Positions 1 to 11,141 of a stretch of 61,505 nucleotides of DNA are shown here, piece after piece. The DNA comes from Desulforadius tongensis. GTDB taxonomy: Bacteria; Bacillota; Desulfotomaculia; Desulfotomaculales; Desulfohalotomaculaceae. The position numbers and the translations under genes were made by a program. Position 1 is the first letter of the stretch; the number at the start of each line of letters is the position of its first letter. Below the pieces are notes generated by a model. That model had not been told where the DNA came from. It saw nothing but the letters and a program-made list of their open reading frames with translations, and ran no database searches. The stretch spans positions 1-61,505 of the forward strand of contig NZ_JAFBCW010000015.1 in assembly GCF_016907915.1 (NCBI RefSeq). Reading direction: 5' to 3'.

Positions 1-93
1 AGGTTTATCAGGAGCCGTATACGAGGCCCGTACGTACGGTTCTGTGAGAGGGATAACGCCGTAGCAAATTACTGCGGCGTTACCCTACTCGAT
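1..93 (+). mobile_element. Group II intron, 3' end only (domains V and VI)
   Basis: Positions 12-42 fold as a group II domain V hairpin, with GAGCCGTA pairing to TACGGTTC around a bulged distal stem. Positions 53-80 form a domain VI hairpin (AACGCCG with CGGCGTT). An unpaired A follows shortly before the end, and the terminal CTACTCGAT matches bacterial group II introns. The intron therefore runs left out of the window on the plus strand and ends at about 93. Its reverse transcriptase is not visible. The downstream exon is the antisense strand of gerB, so splicing of plus-strand RNA cannot repair gerB mRNA. The exact end could be off by one or two bases. Confidence 0.85.
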
Positions 94-851
94 CTTTGTG
101 CCGCGTTATGGGCGGGAAAATAGTTGCTCGAAGCTGACTCCACCCCGATGGTTAAAACCTCTGCCAGGGAAGTGGCCAGCAGCAGCCCCCCGCCGATCAT
201 TAAGCCTAAGGTGAAAACTTTATGGGCGGCTTTACTTTTCAACCCGGAAAAGACCATCATACATATTACCGCTTCAGCCAGCGGGAAGGAGAAGGTGGAA
301 AAGGCACCTTTTAAAACCGGCGCCATCCCGTTGTACAGCACCGGGCGGATATTTTTTATTTCCCATTCCGGGACCATCAGCAGGATGGTAAAAATGATCA
401 TTATTATCATTATGCACAGGAAACATTCTCCCACCCGGCTCAATACTTCAATGCCCTCTTTTAATGACCAGACGCATAAAATAACCAGTCCCGCCAGGGG
501 AGCCAGCATGGGGGTTTCCGGAAAAGCCACGATAGTGATAAACTCGGTGAAAGTTCTTAAAACAAGGGCTCCTAACAAAAGGGCAAACCAAATATAAATG
601 AGGCTGATTAAATTACCTATCACAGCACCGAAAACTATTTTGGCAATGTCAAATAAATCCTTTCCCGGGTAAAGGGAGAGAATTCTGGCATAAACGGACA
701 GTACAGCGTAAGCCGGCAGAACGGCTAATAAAATGGCCAGCCAAAAATCCTTTTCTGCCGTTATCCCGCTGGTAAATACCAGGGAATCGCCGATGATTAC
801 AAAGGTAACCAGGGTGATGCCCTGCTTTTGCGAGATTATTTCTTTATTCAC
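94..851 (-). pseudogene. Spore germination permease GerB family, truncated by intron
   Basis: This is the N-terminal part of a GerAB/GerKB-type permease (APC superfamily), the membrane subunit of a nutrient germinant receptor in the spore inner membrane. About 250 residues with several hydrophobic helices remain, against roughly 360 usual. The reading frame enters the intron at 93 and stops soon afterwards, so the C-terminal helices are lost or lie left of the window. I place the start at GTG 851: GGAGGA lies seven bases upstream, and translation from the ATG at 890 would add an unlikely N-terminus. It overlaps the preceding small gene by eight bases. Loss of function is inferred from the antisense intron insertion. 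Confidence 0.85.
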
Positions 852-1065
852 CGCTGATTCCTCCAATAAATAATGACAGGGACTGTTCAATTACACGGGC
901 CGCACTGGGAATTTTAATACCGGAATTAAGCAGCAGGCTGATTATTAGAGAGAATAAAAACACGGCAGTATTAAAGGCTGCTTCCTTTTTTTGATTATTT
1001 TTATACAGGGGGAATATTTCTATAAATCCCAGTATTAGGTAAGCCAGCGTTATTACCAGGTACAT
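844..1065 (-). CDS. Small membrane protein of the germination operon
   Basis: A 73-residue protein with two hydrophobic segments (about residues 2-20 and 33-48) separated by a lysine-rich loop. It lies between gerC and gerB, three bases after the gerC stop and overlapping the gerB start, with a GGGAG ribosome site. Small membrane proteins inside ger operons are known, and some modulate receptor activity. Assigning that role here is inference from position. No family is recognised with confidence. Confidence 0.7.
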   Translation of the reverse strand: MYLVITLAYLILGFIEIFPLYKNNQKKEAAFNTAVFLFSLIISLLLNSGIKIPSAARVIEQSLSLFIGGISGE

Positions 1066-1068
1066 AAA

Positions 1069-2232
1069 TCAATCTCCCACTTTAATGCTCCTTGATGTTA
1101 AAGCGCTGCTCCTGATATCAATGTTTATATTTATGTCTGTGTCCAGCTGGGGGAATATTTCATCCCAATTGGGCTCCATTTGTTTCCATAATGAGGGCAT
1201 TTCCCTTTGTATGAGTTGGCCGAAGCCAAATACATCACTTTGGTAACTTTGTGCTTTTTTGATGGCGTTTTGCAGGCGCCTTTTCATCTCTTCAACGACG
1301 GCCTGTTTTATTTCACTTTCTACCTTTTTATCTAAGAGATCCGCGCCGGCGGCATCAATCTCTGCTATGGCCGCTTCCATATTTATATTAACATTCATAA
1401 CAAGCCGGTCATCTTTGTAAACCGGTTTTATTTTAGTCTTAGCGTCAAATATTTCCAAGGTAATCTTTGTCTGCTTGCCCTTGATGTTAGCTAATTCTTC
1501 TATCAGCGCGCCGCCCTTCATTTCGTTCCTCAACCATAACAACCCCCTGGTTTCAGAACCGTTAAACCAACCCACCTGTGTGTCTTTTTTAAAAATTGCT
1601 GTGCCGTGCATTTGAGGCTTTGTTTTTCCTTTAACCGTTACGGTGTTAACGGTGGCCGCGGCGGCTGAAATGCCCTTGGCAGACAGGTCGTTTATAAATT
1701 CCCATAACTCAAAGGAGGGATACGTGGATAAGCTTTTTTTGTTTTTTAACATATCTTCCAGTTGAAATGAAACAATACTTTCTATTTCCACGCTGCTTTC
1801 TAATATTTCCCCGGCGGTTTTTTCCCTGGAGATAATTAAAAACATATCCGGCCTTACCTCCGCGTCTCTGTTTATCCAATCAATAATGGGGACAATATTT
1901 TCCTGGGCAATTTCTTTACTGACGATAATTACCTTGGCGTGACTCCAGTATAATTTTTTACCTGTGAGGGCGATGAAGTTGCGTATGGCGCTGAAGATTG
2001 TATCACCCTTCATTTTTACAGTAGTTGATTTTATCTGCATTTCTTTTTCCTGGGCCTGGGGTTTGATGATTTCTACCGTTAAAAGGTATTTGCCGTCTTT
2101 GGGGTCTTTATCTACCGCCAGGCCGGCTGCTATAGCCAAATCTTCCACTTCTTTGTAATTCCAGCAGCCTGCCGGTATCAGCATATTTACAAGCAGCATG
2201 AAGGTAAGAAGCATTACTTTTGCTTTCCGCAA
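1069..2232 (-). CDS. Spore germination lipoprotein, Ger(x)C family
   Basis: The C subunit of a nutrient germinant receptor. Residues 1-23 are a lipoprotein signal ending in the lipobox LIPAGC, so Cys23 is the expected lipid-modified residue anchoring the protein to the spore inner membrane. The remainder (387 residues total) matches the Ger(x)C pattern: an N-terminal domain beginning WNYKEVEDLA and a C-terminal domain of long amphipathic helices. The start is TTG with GAAGG upstream. It follows gerA by five bases and is clearly co-transcribed with it. The operon's B subunit is interrupted, so this receptor is probably incomplete. Confidence 0.93.
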   Translation of the reverse strand: MRKAKVMLLTFMLLVNMLIPAGCWNYKEVEDLAIAAGLAVDKDPKDGKYLLTVEIIKPQAQEKEMQIKSTTVKMKGDTIFSAIRNFIALTGKKLYWSHAKVIIVSKEIAQENIVPIIDWINRDAEVRPDMFLIISREKTAGEILESSVEIESIVSFQLEDMLKNKKSLSTYPSFELWEFINDLSAKGISAAAATVNTVTVKGKTKPQMHGTAIFKKDTQVGWFNGSETRGLLWLRNEMKGGALIEELANIKGKQTKITLEIFDAKTKIKPVYKDDRLVMNVNINMEAAIAEIDAAGADLLDKKVESEIKQAVVEEMKRRLQNAIKKAQSYQSDVFGFGQLIQREMPSLWKQMEPNWDEIFPQLDTDININIDIRSSALTSRSIKVGD

Positions 2233-2237
2233 TGATA

Positions 2238-3746
2238 CTACCTTCTTTCAATAAGCCTGGGGCCGGATTTACGCAGCATGTTTTTGGTCATTAACTTTGG
2301 TCGAAAATACATGGCGTACCAGGGGGCCCTTACTGCCGTATCTTTCAAGTCCCGTACGTTTATGGAGCTGACATTTAACATGTAGGGAACACCGAAAGAG
2401 CGCATGGACATTAAGTGAATAAACAGGCCGATTACGCCGAAAATGTAACCGTACAATCCTAAAACAGATGATAATAGTAAAAGGATTATTCGCACTAGAA
2501 TTAAAGCTCCCAGCATTTCTGTGATTAAATAACTGGTGATGCCGGTTAAGGCCACCACTATAATCATGGGGGCGCTGGCAAACTTAGCGGTAACCGCTGC
2601 CTCTCCCAGTACCAGCGCCCCCACGATGCTTACCGTTTGGCCGATGGGGGTTGCCAACCGGACTCCTGCTTCTCTCAGCATTTCAAAGGTGACCAGCATG
2701 GCCGCTGCTTCCACCACTGTGGGAAAGGGCACTCCTTCCCTGGAAGCAGCGATGCTGAGCAAAAGCGGCGTGGGTATCATTTCCTGGTGATAGGTGGTTA
2801 AGGCTAAAAAAATGCTCGGCACGCTGATGGTTAAGAAAAATGAAAAGTAGCGCAGCATTCTGTTGATTGAAGCAAAAATAAAGTTATTATAATAATCTTC
2901 GTTTACTTGAAAGGCTTCTATAAATATATGGGGTAAGGTTAAAACAAAGGGGCTGCCGTCGCATACAACGGCAACTCTTCCTTCCAGTAACTTACCGGCC
3001 ACCGTGTCCGGGCGCTCGGTACTGCCGATTGTTTTAAAGGGTGACAGGGGCGAATCTTTTATTAATTCTTCTATATAACCGGAATCAAGCACACCGTCTA
3101 TGTTTATATTGTCCAGCCTTTTTTCCAGTTCGTTTATTATTTTTGCGGGGGCCAGCCCTTCTATGTAGCATATGCAGATGGTGGTTTTGGTACGGGTGCC
3201 CAACTGTTTAAATTCAAATTTCAAATCTGTGGTTAACAGCTTTCTGCGGATTAAAGAAAGATTGATAATGATAGATTCGGTAAAGCCCTCCCGTGCCCCC
3301 CGGACTACTTTTTCTGTTTCCGGGGGGGTTATTGATCTTACCTTCCATCCCTTGGTGTCGATGATTAAAATTTCACTAAAACCGTCTACCAGCAGCATTG
3401 TATCCCCGTATAATATTGCCTCTGCTAAACAGCTGATGTCAGAGGATTTTTTAACATTACCGGAAATAAGCACTTTATTGACAATGAAATCCAGTATTTT
3501 GCTTTGCGGGATGTTTTCATATTCATCCAGGTACATAACGGGCTGCATGATGTTTTCGTTGATGATTTCGCGATCTGCCATTTCATCCACATAGATCAGA
3601 CAGCATTTTATGTTTTTGTAACCGGCTTTAAAATGCCTGAAAATAATAGTCCGGTCGTGGGAAAAAATTTTTTGAAATAAAGAGATGTTCTGATCAATGG
3701 ATTTGGTCAGCTTTAAATGAGCGGTATTAAAAAGTTTATTGAACAT
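2238..3746 (-). CDS. Spore germination protein GerA family
   Basis: The A subunit of a Ger nutrient receptor, 502 residues, usual for the family. A soluble N-terminal half contains characteristic segments such as SDISCLAEAILYGDT and GFSEILIID. A membrane half follows with several hydrophobic helices between about residues 290 and 460, including REGVPFPTVVEA and PIGQTVSIVGALVLGE, which are typical of GerA proteins. First gene of the operon gerA-gerC-small gene-gerB on the minus strand. It is divergent from the helicase cluster at 3891 across a 144-base gap that should hold promoters for both. Such receptors are usually expressed in the forespore; I could not identify a sigma-G promoter with confidence. 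Confidence 0.95.
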   Translation of the reverse strand: MFNKLFNTAHLKLTKSIDQNISLFQKIFSHDRTIIFRHFKAGYKNIKCCLIYVDEMADREIINENIMQPVMYLDEYENIPQSKILDFIVNKVLISGNVKKSSDISCLAEAILYGDTMLLVDGFSEILIIDTKGWKVRSITPPETEKVVRGAREGFTESIIINLSLIRRKLLTTDLKFEFKQLGTRTKTTICICYIEGLAPAKIINELEKRLDNINIDGVLDSGYIEELIKDSPLSPFKTIGSTERPDTVAGKLLEGRVAVVCDGSPFVLTLPHIFIEAFQVNEDYYNNFIFASINRMLRYFSFFLTISVPSIFLALTTYHQEMIPTPLLLSIAASREGVPFPTVVEAAAMLVTFEMLREAGVRLATPIGQTVSIVGALVLGEAAVTAKFASAPMIIVVALTGITSYLITEMLGALILVRIILLLLSSVLGLYGYIFGVIGLFIHLMSMRSFGVPYMLNVSSINVRDLKDTAVRAPWYAMYFRPKLMTKNMLRKSGPRLIERR

Positions 3747-3890
3747 ATGAAAACACCCTTTACCGTTATTTACCTCGTTATTCTAATGTTTCCGAAATAT
3801 GATATATTATGTAACATTGGCCCGGTGGTTAATAAAGGGAAATAGTTTTCGGGTATGGAAATAAGATATAAATAAAAAAATACGGGGTGT

Positions 3891-5888
3891 TTGAACTTGA
3901 AACAAGTTATCTCCGGACCGCTGGGCAGTGGGAAAACCAGTGCCTTGAAAGAAAAATACCGGCATTTAATTGCCGGCGGGGTTAAATCGGACAATATACT
4001 GGTTATGGTTCGCTCATCACTGGATGAGGATAAATGGAGAAAAACCTTAAAAATTCCCGTCAGCGGCACTTTACATATTCACACCTATTTCGGTTTGGTA
4101 CAAAATCAGCTGACTAAGTTTTGGCCGCTGGTGGAATCAAAGCTGCCCGGCACCAGTAAACTGCTGCAGCCGGTTTTTATGACGGTGGAGGCGTCTCACT
4201 ACTTAATAAGTACCATGGTGGAGGAAGTGCGCCACAGCGGCGGCTTTGCGGAGGTCAAGTCCACCACTGAAAATATTGCCATTCAGTTAATTGATAACTT
4301 GAACCAGGCGGCGGTAAACGGCATATCTTTACCCGCGGCGGCCAAGCGGCTGCACATGCTGGCCGTTTCCAGCGGCGGTGAAGAAAAAACAGCTGCTTAC
4401 CTTGATGCCATCACGGTGATGAAACAATTCCGGGAAAAGTGTCTTCAAACCCGTAGTATTGACTATTCCCTGGCGGTGGAATTGTTTAACGGTATTTTGA
4501 TGTCAGACTGCCGGTTCCTTAAATATTTAAAGGAGCAGTGGCGTTATATTATTGTGGATGACATTGAAGAAATGGTACCCACCGCCCAGGATTTAATATT
4601 ATACCTGCTCAATGATGCTGCAGGTGCTTACATGGGGTATGACCCCGAAGGCGGTCATACGGTGTTTTTTGGCGCTTACCCCGAAGGGGTAAGGCAAAAA
4701 ATACTGCCCCGGTGTGAGATTAAAGAATTAAAACCGGCGGGGGGAGAGCAAACCAGGGAATTGGCCGCAAATCTGGTCCGGGTTATTACCGGTAAAGCAA
4801 GGGAAATGACCGGTTCGCCGGCCCTTAAGGGACAGATTGTTACCGTCCTGCGGGGAGAAATGCTGGAAAAGGTGGTTGGGCAGGTTGAACGGTTAATTGC
4901 TTCCGGTACAAAACCCAAAGAAATAGCGGTTATAGCGCCGGTGGTGGACAAGGTGCTGGAATTTAGTCTGCATAATAAGCTGGCAGAACGGGAGATAGGT
5001 ATTGCTAATTTATCCCGTTCTAAAAGGCTGTTGGATCAACCCTTTGCCAATGCCATGATCACACTGGCGGTGCTGGCCAATCCGGATTGGAAGACGGAAA
5101 TAAATTTTTCATCCCTGGTTCAGACGCTGTGTTTGTTGTTAAAGACGGATCCGGTACGGGCATCTTTACTGGCGGAAGAAACCTTTAAAAATGATTTAAA
5201 GCTGCCCGACCTGGATGAGCTGAATTTAAGGGAACAGGTTGGCTACCGGTACGCGGAACATTACCAGGAACTGAGGCAGTGGGTAGAGCGGAGACGGCAG
5301 GACAAACCGGACTTGGAACTGCTGTTTCAACAGGCCTTTGCAGAGCTGCTTTCGCCCCTGCTGCCCGGGGAAGAGGATTTACTGGCCTGCCGCCAGATGA
5401 TTGATTCGGCGGTTAAACTGCGCCGGGTGTTAAGCTGCTATAATGACGCCCCCCTGGGGCATAACTTTATTGACATGATTCAAAAGGGAACGCTGGCGGC
5501 GGAGGTGCTCTACCGCCCGCCTGCCCACCGGAATAAAGTTATTCTTACTTCTCCGCTGAATTTTATATTAAACCCCTATATTGAAAGGGTTAAGTATCAA
5601 TTTTGGCTGGATATCGGGGGTAACCAGTGGATGAGGGGCATGGCCAAGGAACTGGCCAATCCCTGGGTGCTGTCCCGGCGCTGGACCGGTCACCAGGTGT
5701 GGGATGACGGTGTGGATCAAAATATCCGCCGGCAAAAACTGGGCATCCTGGTCAGGGCGCTGCTGGGCAAATGCAGCGAAGGTATATTTGTTGCTTACAG
5801 TGAAATAAACAGCCAGGGCTGGGAACAAAACGGGTTACTGGTGGATGTTTTTGACAGCGTGCAGCAGGGGAGGGAAGCAGGTGATTAG
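3891..5888 (+). CDS. AddB-like P-loop helicase-family protein (split AddB N-terminal part)
   Basis: A 665-residue protein with a Walker A motif GPLGSGKT at residues 9-16 and a possible Walker B segment YIIVDDIEEM near residue 220. The N-terminus resembles AddB, which starts with a P-loop but lacks most other helicase motifs. The C-terminal stretch GIFVAYSEINSQGWEQNG resembles the last motif of UvrD/AddB-like proteins. No nuclease domain is present here; a separate nuclease is encoded two genes downstream. First of four overlapping genes, ending eight bases inside the helicase gene. Start TTG 3891 is used, TTG 3897 being an alternative behind a weak GGGG site. The AddB relation is inferred from motifs and context; it could be a different UvrD-like partner. 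Confidence 0.7.
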   Translation: MNLKQVISGPLGSGKTSALKEKYRHLIAGGVKSDNILVMVRSSLDEDKWRKTLKIPVSGTLHIHTYFGLVQNQLTKFWPLVESKLPGTSKLLQPVFMTVEASHYLISTMVEEVRHSGGFAEVKSTTENIAIQLIDNLNQAAVNGISLPAAAKRLHMLAVSSGGEEKTAAYLDAITVMKQFREKCLQTRSIDYSLAVELFNGILMSDCRFLKYLKEQWRYIIVDDIEEMVPTAQDLILYLLNDAAGAYMGYDPEGGHTVFFGAYPEGVRQKILPRCEIKELKPAGGEQTRELAANLVRVITGKAREMTGSPALKGQIVTVLRGEMLEKVVGQVERLIASGTKPKEIAVIAPVVDKVLEFSLHNKLAEREIGIANLSRSKRLLDQPFANAMITLAVLANPDWKTEINFSSLVQTLCLLLKTDPVRASLLAEETFKNDLKLPDLDELNLREQVGYRYAEHYQELRQWVERRRQDKPDLELLFQQAFAELLSPLLPGEEDLLACRQMIDSAVKLRRVLSCYNDAPLGHNFIDMIQKGTLAAEVLYRPPAHRNKVILTSPLNFILNPYIERVKYQFWLDIGGNQWMRGMAKELANPWVLSRRWTGHQVWDDGVDQNIRRQKLGILVRALLGKCSEGIFVAYSEINSQGWEQNGLLVDVFDSVQQGREAGD

Positions 5889-8088
5889 TTTAAGACCGGG
5901 GCAAAAGGAAGTGGCCCGGTACCGGGGCGGGCTGCTGGCGGTGCCGGCGGTGCCGGGGGCCGGAAAAACCACTGTGCTGGCTCACCTAACGGCGGATTTG
6001 ATACAAGAGGGATGCAGCGGTTCGGGTAAAATTCTCATTGTAACGGTGATGAACTCTGCGGTGGCTAATTTTCGCAGCCGCATTGGGGATTTTTTGCAGC
6101 AGCGGGGGCTGCCCCGGGGTAAAGGGTATGAAGTTAAAACGCTGCATTCCCTGGCCATGACCATATTGAAAGAAAAACCGGAATTTTTACTGATTAACCA
6201 AAACTTCCGGATTATTGACGAGGGCGGCCGGTACGAACTGTTAAATGATTTAGTTAAAGAGTGGATGATCACAAACAAAAATTTATGGAAAGAGCCCATT
6301 AAAATTAAGAAAAATGACCGGTGGTATCAAAGGGCTTTAGAGAGGTGGGAGCAGAAGGACCTGCCCAATATATTTTGCAGCGGGGTGAGCACCGTTAAAT
6401 CCACCGGTTTAACGGCGGAACAGGTGCGAAACTTGCAGCAGCGGCTGGATGAAAGGTCGTATTTAAGCTGGGTACTGAGCATTTATCAGCGGTATAACCA
6501 GGTATTAAACCGGGAAGGACTGCTGGATTTTGACGACTTAATTGTACAGGCCCTGCGCCTGTTAAAAGAAGACGGCGGGGTACTGGAACGCCTGCAAAAT
6601 CGCTGGACCTTTTGCTTTGAAGATGAAGCCCAGGATTCCACCCCGCTGCAGGAAGAGATTTTAATGCTGCTGGCTGAAAAATCCGGCAACCTGGTGCGGG
6701 TGGGGGATTCCAACCAGGCTATTTTGGGTACCTTTACAGCGGCGGAACCGGAAATATTTCGCCGCTATTGTACCCGGGAAGATGTAAAAAAGGAATCAAT
6801 TTTATATTCCAGCCGCAGCACAGTACAAATAATTAACCTGGCCAATTACCTGGTGGACTGGACAAATAACTGCCATCCCCAGCAGGAATGCCGGGAGGCG
6901 CTGGAAAACCGGCATATTCACCCGGTGGACAAAAGTGCCCCCTACCCCAACCCCAGCACAAAGGGATACACCATTGGGGTGCGGGGATTTAAGGATCAGG
7001 CCGCCGAAATTAAGCTGGTGGCCCAACTGGCCGGTGATTATATCAACAGGACCCCCCGGGATACCGTGGCCATACTGGTATCCAACCGGTACGTGCAGCA
7101 GGATATGGCCCAGGTGTTAACTGAATTAAATGTTCCCTTCGAGGAAGTGGGTAAAATAACTAACCGGCAGGCGAAAACCATTGTCGATGTGGAAAGGGCT
7201 CTGGAGTATCTGGCCCAACCGCACCGGGTCAATTTGCTGGTGGCGCTGGTTAAAAACGTATTTCTCAGCCAGTTAAGTGCAGAGGAAGGCAAATTTTTAA
7301 CTAAATTGTTTCAAAAATATACCCTGCAGCAGGTGCTTTATCCCATTGGCGGTCAGCTGCCGTGGCTGGAGATGCCCGATGAGCTGTCAGACCCGGCCAT
7401 TTACACCGGTTTTGTGGAGGGGTTAAAAACCATACAAAAATGGCTGGCGGCCAGTGTACAGCTGCCGCCCGATGAATTGGTGCTGTACCTGGCGGAGGAT
7501 ATGGATTTAGATATGGAACAGCTGGGCATTGCCCATAATTTAGCCTTGTTAATCAGGCAAAAAATGTACCAGCATCCCCACTGGCGGCTGTACGACATTG
7601 CTTTGGATTTACCGAGCCTAAAAAGTTCGGTGCGTCATTTTTTGCGGGTGGTCAATGAACAGCAGGGGTTTGAACCCACCCCGGGGGTGATATCGCTGAT
7701 TACTGCCCACAAGTCCAAGGGGTTGGAATGGGATACCGTTTATTTGACCGGAGTTACTGCGGCGGAATATCCTTCTTCAAGAACAGACAGGTTTAAAAGT
7801 GAGATGTGGTACTTGAAGGAAGATTTAAACAATCCCTTGGCGTTAATTAAAGCAGAGCTGAAGTCTTTAACCGGTGAAAGGGTAACTGACCCGCTGTACC
7901 AGTTTAAAATTGATGAAATATGCGAACGCTTGAGACTGCTCTATGTGGCTGTCACCAGGGCAAAGAAAAATCTTTTAATAACCTATCACGATAAAAATGT
8001 TTTTAACCAGCGGATTGGCCCCAGCCTGGTCCTGAAAGCACTGATGGATCATATATCAAAGGAGCGTGCAGCCAATGATAACGTGTGA
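5881..8088 (+). CDS. UvrD/AddA-type superfamily 1 DNA helicase
   Basis: A superfamily 1A helicase, about 735 residues from the GTG at 5881, which has GGAGGG upstream and overlaps the preceding stop by eight bases. Visible motifs in order: Walker A PGAGKTT near residue 25, motif II FEDEAQDSTPLQ near 245, motif III VRVGDSNQA, motif V TAHKSKGLEWDTVYL near 606 and motif VI RLRLLYVAVTRAK near 683. These predict an active 3'-5' translocase. It is far shorter than Bacillus AddA (about 1230 residues) and has no C-terminal nuclease domain. Lying between an AddB-like protein and an AddB-type nuclease, it probably forms the motor of a RecBCD/AddAB-like end-resection complex. Confidence 0.9.
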   Translation: MISLRPGQKEVARYRGGLLAVPAVPGAGKTTVLAHLTADLIQEGCSGSGKILIVTVMNSAVANFRSRIGDFLQQRGLPRGKGYEVKTLHSLAMTILKEKPEFLLINQNFRIIDEGGRYELLNDLVKEWMITNKNLWKEPIKIKKNDRWYQRALERWEQKDLPNIFCSGVSTVKSTGLTAEQVRNLQQRLDERSYLSWVLSIYQRYNQVLNREGLLDFDDLIVQALRLLKEDGGVLERLQNRWTFCFEDEAQDSTPLQEEILMLLAEKSGNLVRVGDSNQAILGTFTAAEPEIFRRYCTREDVKKESILYSSRSTVQIINLANYLVDWTNNCHPQQECREALENRHIHPVDKSAPYPNPSTKGYTIGVRGFKDQAAEIKLVAQLAGDYINRTPRDTVAILVSNRYVQQDMAQVLTELNVPFEEVGKITNRQAKTIVDVERALEYLAQPHRVNLLVALVKNVFLSQLSAEEGKFLTKLFQKYTLQQVLYPIGGQLPWLEMPDELSDPAIYTGFVEGLKTIQKWLAASVQLPPDELVLYLAEDMDLDMEQLGIAHNLALLIRQKMYQHPHWRLYDIALDLPSLKSSVRHFLRVVNEQQGFEPTPGVISLITAHKSKGLEWDTVYLTGVTAAEYPSSRTDRFKSEMWYLKEDLNNPLALIKAELKSLTGERVTDPLYQFKIDEICERLRLLYVAVTRAKKNLLITYHDKNVFNQRIGPSLVLKALMDHISKERAANDNV

Positions 8089-8887
8089 CGTTAAAGAAAT
8101 GTATTTCAGCCAGAACTCTTTCAGCACTTATGACTTTTGCAGCCTTAAATTCCGCCGCCGCTATATTGATGGGTTGTACTGGCCGGGCAGCTGGGTAACA
8201 GATAACGAAAAGAGGGAGATGGTGGAACAGGGGCAGCTTTTTCACCTGCTGGCCCATCGTTACTACTGCGGCATAGCAATGGGGGAGTTGGAAAGGTATT
8301 TAACGGAACCGGTGAGCAGCTGGTTTAAGGAATTGCAGAATTTTCGCCCGCTCACCGCTGGGGCGGTATTTCTGCCGGAGCAGGAACTGCGCTGCCACCA
8401 GGATGGGATTAGGCTGGTGGCTAAGTTCGACCTGCTGATGGTACTGCCCGACGGCCGGGCGGTGATATATGATTGGAAGACTGCCCTGGGCAGGCCCAAA
8501 AGCCAGTATTATCGGCAGCATATTCAAACCATTGTTTACCGCTATTTGCTGGTTAAAGCCGGCGGTTTTCTTTCCCCCCGGGGGGCGTTTTCTCCTGCAG
8601 ACATTTCTATGATTTACTGGAATCCCCGCTATCCCAGGCTGGTGGAGCCGCTGGCCTATTCAGAGGACAAATACCAGAGGGATGCGGATATGATTGAGAA
8701 GAAGATTAAAGAAATTGAGAGCAGGGACTATGATCAGTTTTATGCCACCGGTGATCAAAAAAAATGCCGGCATTGTGAGTATTCGCCCATCTGCCACGGC
8801 AGGCCCATGGCTGCCGACTTATCTGAAGAAGTTGAAGAAGAATTGGATATAGATTGGGATGACATTGATGAAATGCTCTTTGAATAA
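8075..8887 (+). CDS. PD-(D/E)XK nuclease with AddB/Cas4-type Fe-S cysteines
   Basis: A 270-residue stand-alone nuclease from ATG 8075, with AAAGGAG ten bases upstream. It carries the N-terminal signature of the family, SFSTYDFCSLKFRRRY. The catalytic core follows as KFDLLMVLPDGR near residue 117 (metal-binding Asp) and IYDWKTA near 132 (the D...xK pair). The C-terminus has CRHCEYSPIC, a Cx2Cx5C pattern which, with the early Cys, matches the four-cysteine Fe-S staple of the AddB nuclease domain. It overlaps the helicase stop by 14 bases and runs into recJ. It is best read as the nuclease domain of AddB encoded as its own subunit, and is the only such nuclease in the cluster. Confidence 0.88.
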   Translation: MITCDVKEMYFSQNSFSTYDFCSLKFRRRYIDGLYWPGSWVTDNEKREMVEQGQLFHLLAHRYYCGIAMGELERYLTEPVSSWFKELQNFRPLTAGAVFLPEQELRCHQDGIRLVAKFDLLMVLPDGRAVIYDWKTALGRPKSQYYRQHIQTIVYRYLLVKAGGFLSPRGAFSPADISMIYWNPRYPRLVEPLAYSEDKYQRDADMIEKKIKEIESRDYDQFYATGDQKKCRHCEYSPICHGRPMAADLSEEVEEELDIDWDDIDEMLFE

Positions 8888-11141
8888 ACGGCACATACCG
8901 GCTGAATATTTGCATGCTGTGGGCGGCAGTGAAATTTTAGCCCGGATATTATTAAAGCGGGGTATTACTCCCGGGGAACTGGAAGGATTTTTAAACTGGG
9001 AAAAATATACCCCCACCGGGCCGGAAGAATTACCGGGTTTAAGCCGGGCGGTGGATATTGTTAAGCAGGCCCTGGATAAAGGGCAAAAAATTTGTGTATA
9101 CGGGGATTACGATGTGGATGGAGTTACTTCCACCGTTTTGCTGGTGTCGGTGTTAAAACTCTTAAATGCCGATGTGATTTATAAGGTTCCTGACCGGTTT
9201 AAAGAGGGCTACGGGTTAAATGCCGGGGTAATTAAAAAGCTTTGGGACCGGGGGGTTAACCTGATTATTACCTGTGACTGCGGCATTGCTAATGGTGATG
9301 AAATTGCACTGGCCAGGGACCTGGGCATGCAGGTGGTGGTTACCGATCACCACCATTTACCGCCGGAACTGCCCGGCGCCGATGCCATTGTAAACTCACA
9401 AATGCTGCCCGACGGTCACCGGGCCAAATATATGCCCGGGGTAGCGGTGGCTTACTTTTTGGCTCAAGCGCTGCTGGAACGGTATCATCGCCGGCGGGAA
9501 GCAGAGCAGTTTATAGACCTGGTGGCGTTGGGTGTAATTGCCGATGTGGTGCCCTTAAAAGGGGAAAACCGTTATTTTGTACAAAGGGGGCTGCCGGAAA
9601 TACGCCGGGCCGGGAGGCCGGGTATTGCCGCGTTAATAGAAGTGGCCGGTCTGGATCGGGAGAACATAACGGAAGAAGATATCGGTTTTCAGATGGTTCC
9701 CCGTCTTAACGCCGCCGGGCGCATGAAAACAGCCCGGTATGCAGTGGAACTGCTTTTAAGTACCGGTATTGACGGGGCCAAAAAATGGGCCGGCATACTG
9801 GATGAACTAAATCAAGCAAGAAAGCAGATAGGCCACCGGATGCTGGAAGAGGCGGAAGCCATGCTGCAGGGTGAGGAGACGGGGCCCATTGTACTTTTCC
9901 AACCGCACTGGCATCACGGTATTATCGGTATTACCGCCGGCAGGCTTTGTGAGAAATACCGGGTGCCGGTGATATTGATGGGTCGGAAGGAAGACGGCCA
10001 AACAGTGGTGGGTTCCGCCAGGTCGGTGGAGGGTATCCACATCTTTGAGGTGCTGCAGCAGTGTGGAGATTATTTGGACAGGTACGGTGGACACGCCGGG
10101 GCGGCGGGATTATCTCTGCACCGGGATAAACTGCCGGCCTTTACCAAGATATGTAAGAGGATACTAACTGAAAAACTGGCGGGAATAAAAGGGAAGGGGA
10201 AAATAAAGTATGATTTAGAAATGCCTTTGGCCCAGGCAACCGCTGAACTTTTCTACCAACTGCAAACTTTAGCCCCCTATGGAGAAGGGTGGCCCCAGCC
10301 CCTTTTGTACTGCCCCGGTGTTAATGTACTGTCTGCCCGCTTTACCACCGGTAAAAAACACCTGCGGCTGGTACTGGAACACCGGGGGCAAAGGGTGCCG
10401 GCCATTCACTGGTGGGGTGCGGACAGCGGTGTGCAGCAGGGAGATCTGCTGTACAGCATTGCTGTTAACCGCTGGCGGGGAGAAGAAAAGGTGCAGTTAG
10501 TGGTGAATGAACTTATAACACCGGCGGCACCCCCGGTAAACGAGAGAAAAACTATATTTATTCAACGGGTACTGGATTGCCGGCGGTGGCGGGAACTGGG
10601 GGAGAAACCGCCTCAGTTTGCCGGCGCGGTATACTTTTATGAAGGTCTGCCGTTAAAGGATTTTCCCCATCCCACCGCTGATCGTTATTCAATAACAAGG
10701 GCCGGGCATCTGGTCCTGTTGAGCTGCCCGCCTAGTAATCAAATTTTTAAAGAAATTATTGCCCTTTCCGGGGCTGAAAATTTAGTTTTGGCCTATTCAC
10801 CACTGCCCGACCTCTCACCGGCAGAGTGTATCAAGCGGGTTATGAGCTATATTAAATACGTGGATAAAAAACTGGGCGGCAAAACCACTGTTTTTGAACT
10901 GGCAGCAATCACCGGGCAGACGGAACTGCTGGTGATGGCGGTAATAAGATTATTAAGGGATAACGGCCTGCTGGAGGTGGGGATAATGGAAAAGGGTAGA
11001 CTGTCTGTTAAATTAAAACGGGGGGCGGGCTTGAAAACTGCTCCGCCGGTGGAAATAAAAGACATGCTGGCAGAGAGCAGCGCCTACCGCCGGTATATGA
11101 ACAATATAACCCCGGAATTGTTATTAAAAAATATTAATTAG
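8868..11141 (+). CDS. recJ: Single-stranded-DNA-specific 5'-3' exonuclease RecJ
   Basis: A DHH-family exonuclease acting in recombination and repair, about 757 residues, the size of long Firmicute RecJ proteins. Motifs: YGDYDVDGVTST (DHH motif I), TCDCGI, VVTDHHHLP (the DHH signature), ALGVIADVVPL, and the DHHA1 motif GGHAGAAGLSL. A C-terminal domain of about 200 residues follows, as in Bacillus-type RecJ. ATG 8868 is preferred over 8859 because GGGA sits at a reasonable distance. The gene overlaps the nuclease gene by about 20 bases, so the two are likely translationally coupled. The arrangement suggests that RecJ works with the helicase-nuclease set; that is inference. Confidence 0.95.
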   Translation: MKCSLNKRHIPAEYLHAVGGSEILARILLKRGITPGELEGFLNWEKYTPTGPEELPGLSRAVDIVKQALDKGQKICVYGDYDVDGVTSTVLLVSVLKLLNADVIYKVPDRFKEGYGLNAGVIKKLWDRGVNLIITCDCGIANGDEIALARDLGMQVVVTDHHHLPPELPGADAIVNSQMLPDGHRAKYMPGVAVAYFLAQALLERYHRRREAEQFIDLVALGVIADVVPLKGENRYFVQRGLPEIRRAGRPGIAALIEVAGLDRENITEEDIGFQMVPRLNAAGRMKTARYAVELLLSTGIDGAKKWAGILDELNQARKQIGHRMLEEAEAMLQGEETGPIVLFQPHWHHGIIGITAGRLCEKYRVPVILMGRKEDGQTVVGSARSVEGIHIFEVLQQCGDYLDRYGGHAGAAGLSLHRDKLPAFTKICKRILTEKLAGIKGKGKIKYDLEMPLAQATAELFYQLQTLAPYGEGWPQPLLYCPGVNVLSARFTTGKKHLRLVLEHRGQRVPAIHWWGADSGVQQGDLLYSIAVNRWRGEEKVQLVVNELITPAAPPVNERKTIFIQRVLDCRRWRELGEKPPQFAGAVYFYEGLPLKDFPHPTADRYSITRAGHLVLLSCPPSNQIFKEIIALSGAENLVLAYSPLPDLSPAECIKRVMSYIKYVDKKLGGKTTVFELAAITGQTELLVMAVIRLLRDNGLLEVGIMEKGRLSVKLKRGAGLKTAPPVEIKDMLAESSAYRRYMNNITPELLLKNIN

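Follow-up and report, generated by a model that had tools for sequence, protein, structure and literature searches.

The stretch of DNA analysed here (the window; 61,505 nucleotides, positions 1 to 61,505 of contig NZ_JAFBCW010000015.1 of Desulforadius tongensis) carries at 3891-11141 a cassette of four plus-strand genes, in which successive genes overlap by 8, 14 and 20 bases, as a first-pass annotation made from the sequence had described. We refer to the gene products as P1, P2, P3 and P4, the last being an operon-type RecJ that is also called RecJ2, and all coordinates are given for the most plausible start codons. P1 (3891-5888; 665 amino acids (aa), TTG start with GGGGTG upstream) is read as an AddB-like subunit that comprises the helicase-like half only, without a nuclease. 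P2 (5881-8088; 735 aa, GTG start) is an AddA/UvrD-type superfamily 1A (SF1A) helicase without a nuclease domain. P3 (8075-8887; 270 aa from ATG 8075, with the reading frame open upstream from GTG 8066) is a free RecB/AddB-type PD-(D/E)XK nuclease with a four-cysteine set of the iron-sulfur (Fe-S) ligand type. P4 (8868-11141; ATG start) has the DHH-DHHA1-OB architecture followed by a C-terminal region of ~200 residues, and its overlap with P3 becomes 29 bases if the alternative in-frame ATG at 8859 is used. Gene layout and domain search revealed no RecD-like gene among the genes of the cassette.

In the domain search P1 matched only the Pfam UvrD N-domain and no nuclease domain, and the single P1 sequence searched against the PDB gave no useful match, so that P1 was placed by profile and fold. 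The P1 family profile aligned over the whole length of P1 with columns 1-679 of the 1046 columns of the AddB profile at a score of 193, above the scores against AddA (168) and P2 (138). Three individual P1-family sequences matched Pfam ADDB_N, and one of these matches exceeded the cut-off. The AlphaFold model of P1 (predicted local distance difference test 92, predicted template modelling score 0.90) displayed a complete SF1 fold, which overlays AddB residues 2-696 with ~590-600 residues at 5.6-6.0 Å and AdnB chains with ~584-606 residues at 4.3-4.5 Å. UvrD-type chains gave similar or higher Z scores, but over fewer residues and at 8.8-11.6 Å because the domain arrangement differs. The fold of P1 alone therefore leaves room for a UvrD-type relative, and it is the profile comparison that favours AddB over a UvrD-type protein.

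The Walker A motif is present in P1 of the window, and the Glu of motif II is replaced by Asp. Among 75 P1 homologues the Walker A Lys is kept in 73, and the position of the catalytic Glu is occupied by Asn in 71 and by Asp in four; judging from the kept Walker A and the altered motif II, P1 likely binds ATP without hydrolysing it. Two homologues with the same gene order have lost Walker A, therefore ATP binding by P1 is not always required. The first-pass annotation had taken P1 for an AddB-like P-loop protein without a nuclease and had suggested a profile comparison with the AddB/RecC group. The AddB likeness is upheld by the profile scores, in which AddB ranks best, by the ADDB_N matches and by the fold, and the P-loop does not extend to every member of the family. 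The Chi-contact residues of AddB (F68, R70, W73, F210 and others) are not kept in the 75 P1 homologues: at R70 and W73, which we take to be Chi contacts from the AddAB structure papers, P1 has Gly in 48 of 75 and mostly Gln or Arg, respectively. At F210, a Chi-contacting residue of Bacillus subtilis AddB (PMC4824097), all 75 have Ile or Leu. The AddB proteins of the same genomes likewise vary at several of these sites, so the loss of Chi contacts in P1 is suggestive only.

P2 carries UvrD N and C domains and no nuclease in the domain search, and its helicase motifs are complete and kept across homologues. The alignment of the P2 profile with AddA reaches column 924 of 1192, the nuclease boundary, and the score is 487 against AddA versus 252 against AddB. 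Foldseek ranks UvrD and PcrA as the closest matches to the predicted P2 fold, ahead of AdnB and AddA. P2 is the helicase part of AddA and likely the motor of the cassette, in keeping with the compact UvrD/AddA helicase that had been anticipated.

P3 matches PDDEXK_1 and belongs to the RecB-family nucleases with a Cx2Cx5C motif plus an early Cys. The cysteines C25, C234, C237 and C243 are invariant in 39 homologues, as are H60, E105, D122, D136, K138, Q154 and Y158, and the separate 270-residue nuclease with this cysteine pattern that was proposed in the first pass is thereby substantiated. By alignment, the four cysteines are the putative Fe-S ligand set of the AddB nuclease type. The P3 profile aligned with AddB 725-1046, and its scores against the nuclease tails of AddB (111) and AddA (105) do not differ meaningfully. 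In the set used for a nuclease tree, Cx2Cx5-6C is present in 38/38 P3, 6/21 AddB and 4/16 AddA sequences; P3 formed one clade in this tree and AddA weakly one, with AddB in between. The AddA of D. tongensis itself (L007 7718-10975) also carries a Cx2Cx5C cluster at its C-terminal end, a feature that is as a rule ascribed to AddB alone.

RecJ is a 5'-3' exonuclease that degrades 5'-ended single strands. P4 is a full RecJ with DHH, DHHA1 and OB domains (519.9 bits versus the NCBIfam recJ cut-off of 396.9), and its catalytic residues are invariant in 26 aligned sequences. A second RecJ of 906 aa is encoded on contig C13 of the same genome, and a second RecJ is present in most cassette carriers. 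Operon RecJs and housekeeping RecJs fall on opposite sides of one branch with a Shimodaira-Hasegawa-like approximate likelihood ratio test (SH-aLRT) value of 100, and the housekeeping RecJs of Chloroflexota, at ~564-612 aa, are without the C-terminal region of ~200 residues found in the operon RecJs. By sequence, the operon RecJ is a RecJ subfamily of its own beside housekeeping RecJ. An analogous case is Deinococcus RecJ, which interacts through its C-terminal domain with the ATPase HerA and is activated by it (PMC4663267); it offers a precedent for RecJ2 docking and not evidence for RecJ2 itself. Unlike the UvrD-like proteins of the cassette, HerA is an FtsK/HerA-type ATPase, and the Deinococcus pair has no counterpart of P1 or P3.

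A scan of 84,980 species found 80 loci, and gene order was counted at those with enough flanking DNA. P2 follows P1 in 46/68 loci, P3 follows P2 in 37/41 and RecJ follows P3 in 27/37, and spacings of -8, -4 and -1 are frequent between the cassette genes. The kept order and spacings indicate that the arrangement is not due to chance. The carriers belong to Clostridia, where the cassette is patchy (7/113 genomes), and Chloroflexota. Isolated carriers bear the labels Acidobacteriota, Gemmatimonadota and Cyanobacteriota; these isolated ones are metagenome bins, some of whose labels are possibly wrong. The recurrence of P1-P2-P3-RecJ that the first-pass annotation had suggested looking for is thus found in several bacterial phyla. 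A complete cassette in the same order also lies on the 56-kb plasmid pSR56 of Salinibacter ruber M8 (NC_014028.1 10001-17884), where the genes are annotated as hypothetical protein, ATP-dependent helicase, PD-(D/E)XK nuclease and RecJ, and the RecJ belongs to the operon RecJ clade. An XRE regulator and a SocA-type antitoxin gene lie near this plasmid copy. The megaplasmid of Ilyobacter polytropus carries a lone P1. Promineifilum, Ardenticatenia-like and related bins (L086-L113) have P1 without an adjoining P2; several of them have secreted-looking proteins of ~615 aa upstream of P1, and in four of these genomes a single RecJ was found. One genome has, besides an intact cassette, a minus-strand P1 fragment of 112 aa (L024:7693-8031) that resembles the remnant of a second copy.

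The co-occurrence of the parts was examined in 298 Anaerolineae genomes, many of them incomplete bins, with counts uncorrected for shared ancestry and with RecJ2 told from housekeeping RecJ by score and length. By hand counting of strong matches, P1 is present in 171 of these genomes. P1 and P3 occur together in 146 genomes, P1 without P3 in 25, P3 without P1 in eight and neither in 119; the corresponding numbers for P1 and RecJ2 are 118, 53, three and 124. Together with the separate RecJ clade, this bears out the coupling to RecJ that was claimed from the gene overlap. Across 15 genomes the distances of all four proteins track those of housekeeping RecJ (r 0.90-0.94), and the four proteins track each other slightly more closely (P1 with RecJ2, r 0.97). 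This pattern fits a cassette that is inherited with the host and not frequently transferred.

The first-pass annotation had proposed a minimal resection machine standing in for AddAB. Its parts hold up, namely an AddB-like P1, an AddA-type helicase P2, a separated nuclease P3 and a coupled RecJ, but the replacement does not apply to D. tongensis itself, whose contig C14 carries full-length addB (997 aa) and addA (1085 aa) as a pair, both encoding a nuclease domain. Carriers lacking full-length addAB, for which a survey had also been suggested, do exist. Of the 146 Anaerolineae genomes that have both P1 and P3, 83 gave no AddA match at E < 1e-100, and about 20 of 45 P1 carriers gave no RecB-type nuclease match in frames >600 aa. 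In 22 such genomes free of nuclease matches, the AddA profile found only UvrD/PcrA-sized or weak matches. Cultured carriers without detectable AddA include Acetivibrio alkalicellulosi, Herbivorax sp. ANBcel31 and Alkalithermobacter paradoxus, the last of which has a single RecJ.

Upstream of P1, the intergenic region 3747-3890 separates the cassette from a divergent minus-strand gene (2238-3746) and, from its position, is the probable site of the operon promoter. The divergent minus-strand genes at 69-3746 of the window resemble, by look, those of a GerA/GerB/GerC-type spore-germination receptor. Elsewhere in the genome, contigs C8 and C13 carry what look like two CRISPR-Cas loci, one with a stand-alone Cas4 adjoining Cas1 and the second with Cas4 and Cas1 fused into a 546-aa protein.

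The cassette resembles each of the known double-strand break-processing enzymes in part. Like AddAB of the B. subtilis type (PDB 3u44, 4cej), it would combine one active and one inactive UvrD-like half with a RecB-family nuclease: P2 corresponds to the helicase part of AddA and P1 to the helicase-like part of AddB with an altered motif II, the two forming a predicted pair, and the cysteine set invariant in P3 is that of the AddB nuclease type by alignment. In AddAB each subunit has its own fused nuclease, whereas here P1 and P2 stop short of the nuclease region and a single P3 is free; the cassette does not keep the AddB Chi contacts in P1, and it adds a dedicated RecJ. Mycobacterial AdnAB (PDB 6ppu, 9np6) likewise has two UvrD-like subunits, and the P1 model superposes on AdnB along its entire length, but AdnA and AdnB are both motors with fused nucleases, whereas the cassette has none fused and P1 has an altered motif II. 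As in RecBCD, there is a single RecB-type nuclease overall and a partner subunit that is inactive (RecC in that enzyme); the RecBCD nuclease, however, lies inside RecB and is joined by a second motor, RecD.

Homology of the parts, intact active sites, gene order, co-occurrence and shared inheritance together point to P1-P4 being a machine dedicated to resecting DNA ends, of the AddAB/RecBCD/AdnAB class but built from separate proteins, a reading to which we assign a probability of roughly 0.68. What we infer of the machine itself, from complex formation and docking to polarity, strand choice, Chi independence and a role in repair, would be as follows. P1 and P2 would pair as AddB and AddA do, with P2 as the sole motor moving 3'-5' and P1 as an ATP-binding, non-hydrolysing structural clamp or strand-guiding partner. 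P3, pinned by its four-cysteine Fe-S staple, would dock as the single RecB-type cutting module. RecJ2, anchored by its C-terminal region, would digest the unwound 5'-ended strand and leave a 3' tail for RecA. With a single RecB-type nuclease and without the AddB kind of Chi pocket, the machine would form its 3' tails free of Chi control. Within AddAB, it is the 5'-ended strand that the AddB nuclease cuts. If P3 occupies the AddB nuclease position, the 5' strand would be the target of both P3 and RecJ2, leaving the 3' strand untouched from the outset; Chi control would then be without purpose, in agreement with the missing Chi contacts. If P3 occupies the AddA position instead, P3 and RecJ2 would divide the two strands. 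The earlier proposal that RecJ serves the other strand holds only in this second case, because the AddB nuclease, like RecJ, cuts the 5'-ended strand.

Several observations weigh against a dedicated resection machine. The leaning of P1 to AddB over AddA is modest (193 versus 168), and the nuclease tree is compatible with P3 in either the AddA- or the AddB-type position. In the Promineifilum group P1 and P3 are unlinked and there is no second RecJ, and in one relative P1 lies ~45 kb from P2 and P3 (G017:C2 161-211 kb), which still overlap. A search for subunit fusions in the longest P1 open frames (to 1515 aa) turned up upstream frame extensions only and no fused partner. AddAB coexists with the cassette in D. 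tongensis and in 63 of the 146 Anaerolineae genomes with P1 and P3, therefore the repair task of the cassette may be narrower.

Alternatively, the four proteins could be repair enzymes that have an operon in common but work independently; P2 might, for instance, serve with RecJ2 as a UvrD-like helicase at stalled forks, and P3 might be a free nuclease. That UvrD and PcrA are the solved folds closest to P2, and that the parts are unlinked in some genomes, would suit such an arrangement. We nevertheless consider it unlikely, given the match of P1 and P2 to the AddB-AddA pair in profiles and the strong co-occurrence of P1, P3 and RecJ2 across genomes. P1, moreover, makes sense mainly as a partner, and the retention, alongside its partner, of a helicase fold whose catalytic motif is altered speaks for a complex. 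The altered motif II of P1, the missing nuclease domain of AddA and the presence of AddAB elsewhere in the same genome could also be taken as signs of a decayed remnant of a duplicated addAB operon. This is extremely improbable, being already contradicted by conservation: P2, P3 and RecJ keep their active-site residues from phylum to phylum, and the identical split recurs in many lineages.

A role in anti-phage defence, with a helicase-nuclease cassette attacking invading DNA ends as in Gabija or other UvrD-nuclease systems, is suggested by the matches of P2 to PADLOC GajB profiles (8e-46), by weak matches of P3 to Cas4-like and DruK nuclease profiles, and by the patchy distribution in Clostridia and the copy on pSR56. 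The GajB matches, however, reflect the shared UvrD fold, since plain PcrA and Rep profiles score equally well, and unlike Gabija the cassette has no match to GajA (an OLD-like nuclease) among its four proteins. The 80 loci showed no recurrent defence neighbours, and no copy of the cassette was found in viral contigs. P1 is present in over half of the Anaerolineae genomes, and the cassette appears to be inherited with the host. A defence function is thus quite unlikely. A mobile defence island was likewise judged unlikely from the distribution, the lack of recurrent neighbours and the inheritance, the one plasmid copy notwithstanding.

The cassette looks like a familiar type of DNA-repair machine in an apparently undescribed layout; no description of a split AddAB or of such a RecJ operon was found in the open-access literature, and an earlier mention may exist elsewhere. 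Accounts of break repair in bacteria assign it to AddAB, RecBCD or AdnAB. We put forward, as a tentative proposal that may well not hold, that the cassette represents a further class of double-strand break-processing enzyme beside these three, with one motor, an ATP-binding but non-hydrolysing partner, a separate Fe-S nuclease, a dedicated RecJ paralogue and no Chi control, and that it is the sole such enzyme in many Chloroflexota and some Clostridia. In one survey, 88% of genomes encode AddAB, RecBCD or AdnAB (PMC6452273), and the cassette could explain part of the remaining genomes, notably in Chloroflexota. As motor, cutting module and exonuclease for the 5' strand are encoded by one gene each, they could be removed or swapped one at a time, unlike in the fused enzymes. 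RecJ is usually regarded as a nuclease that works on its own in the RecFOR pathway; in this cassette, by contrast, a whole RecJ subfamily appears to be tied to a helicase-nuclease.

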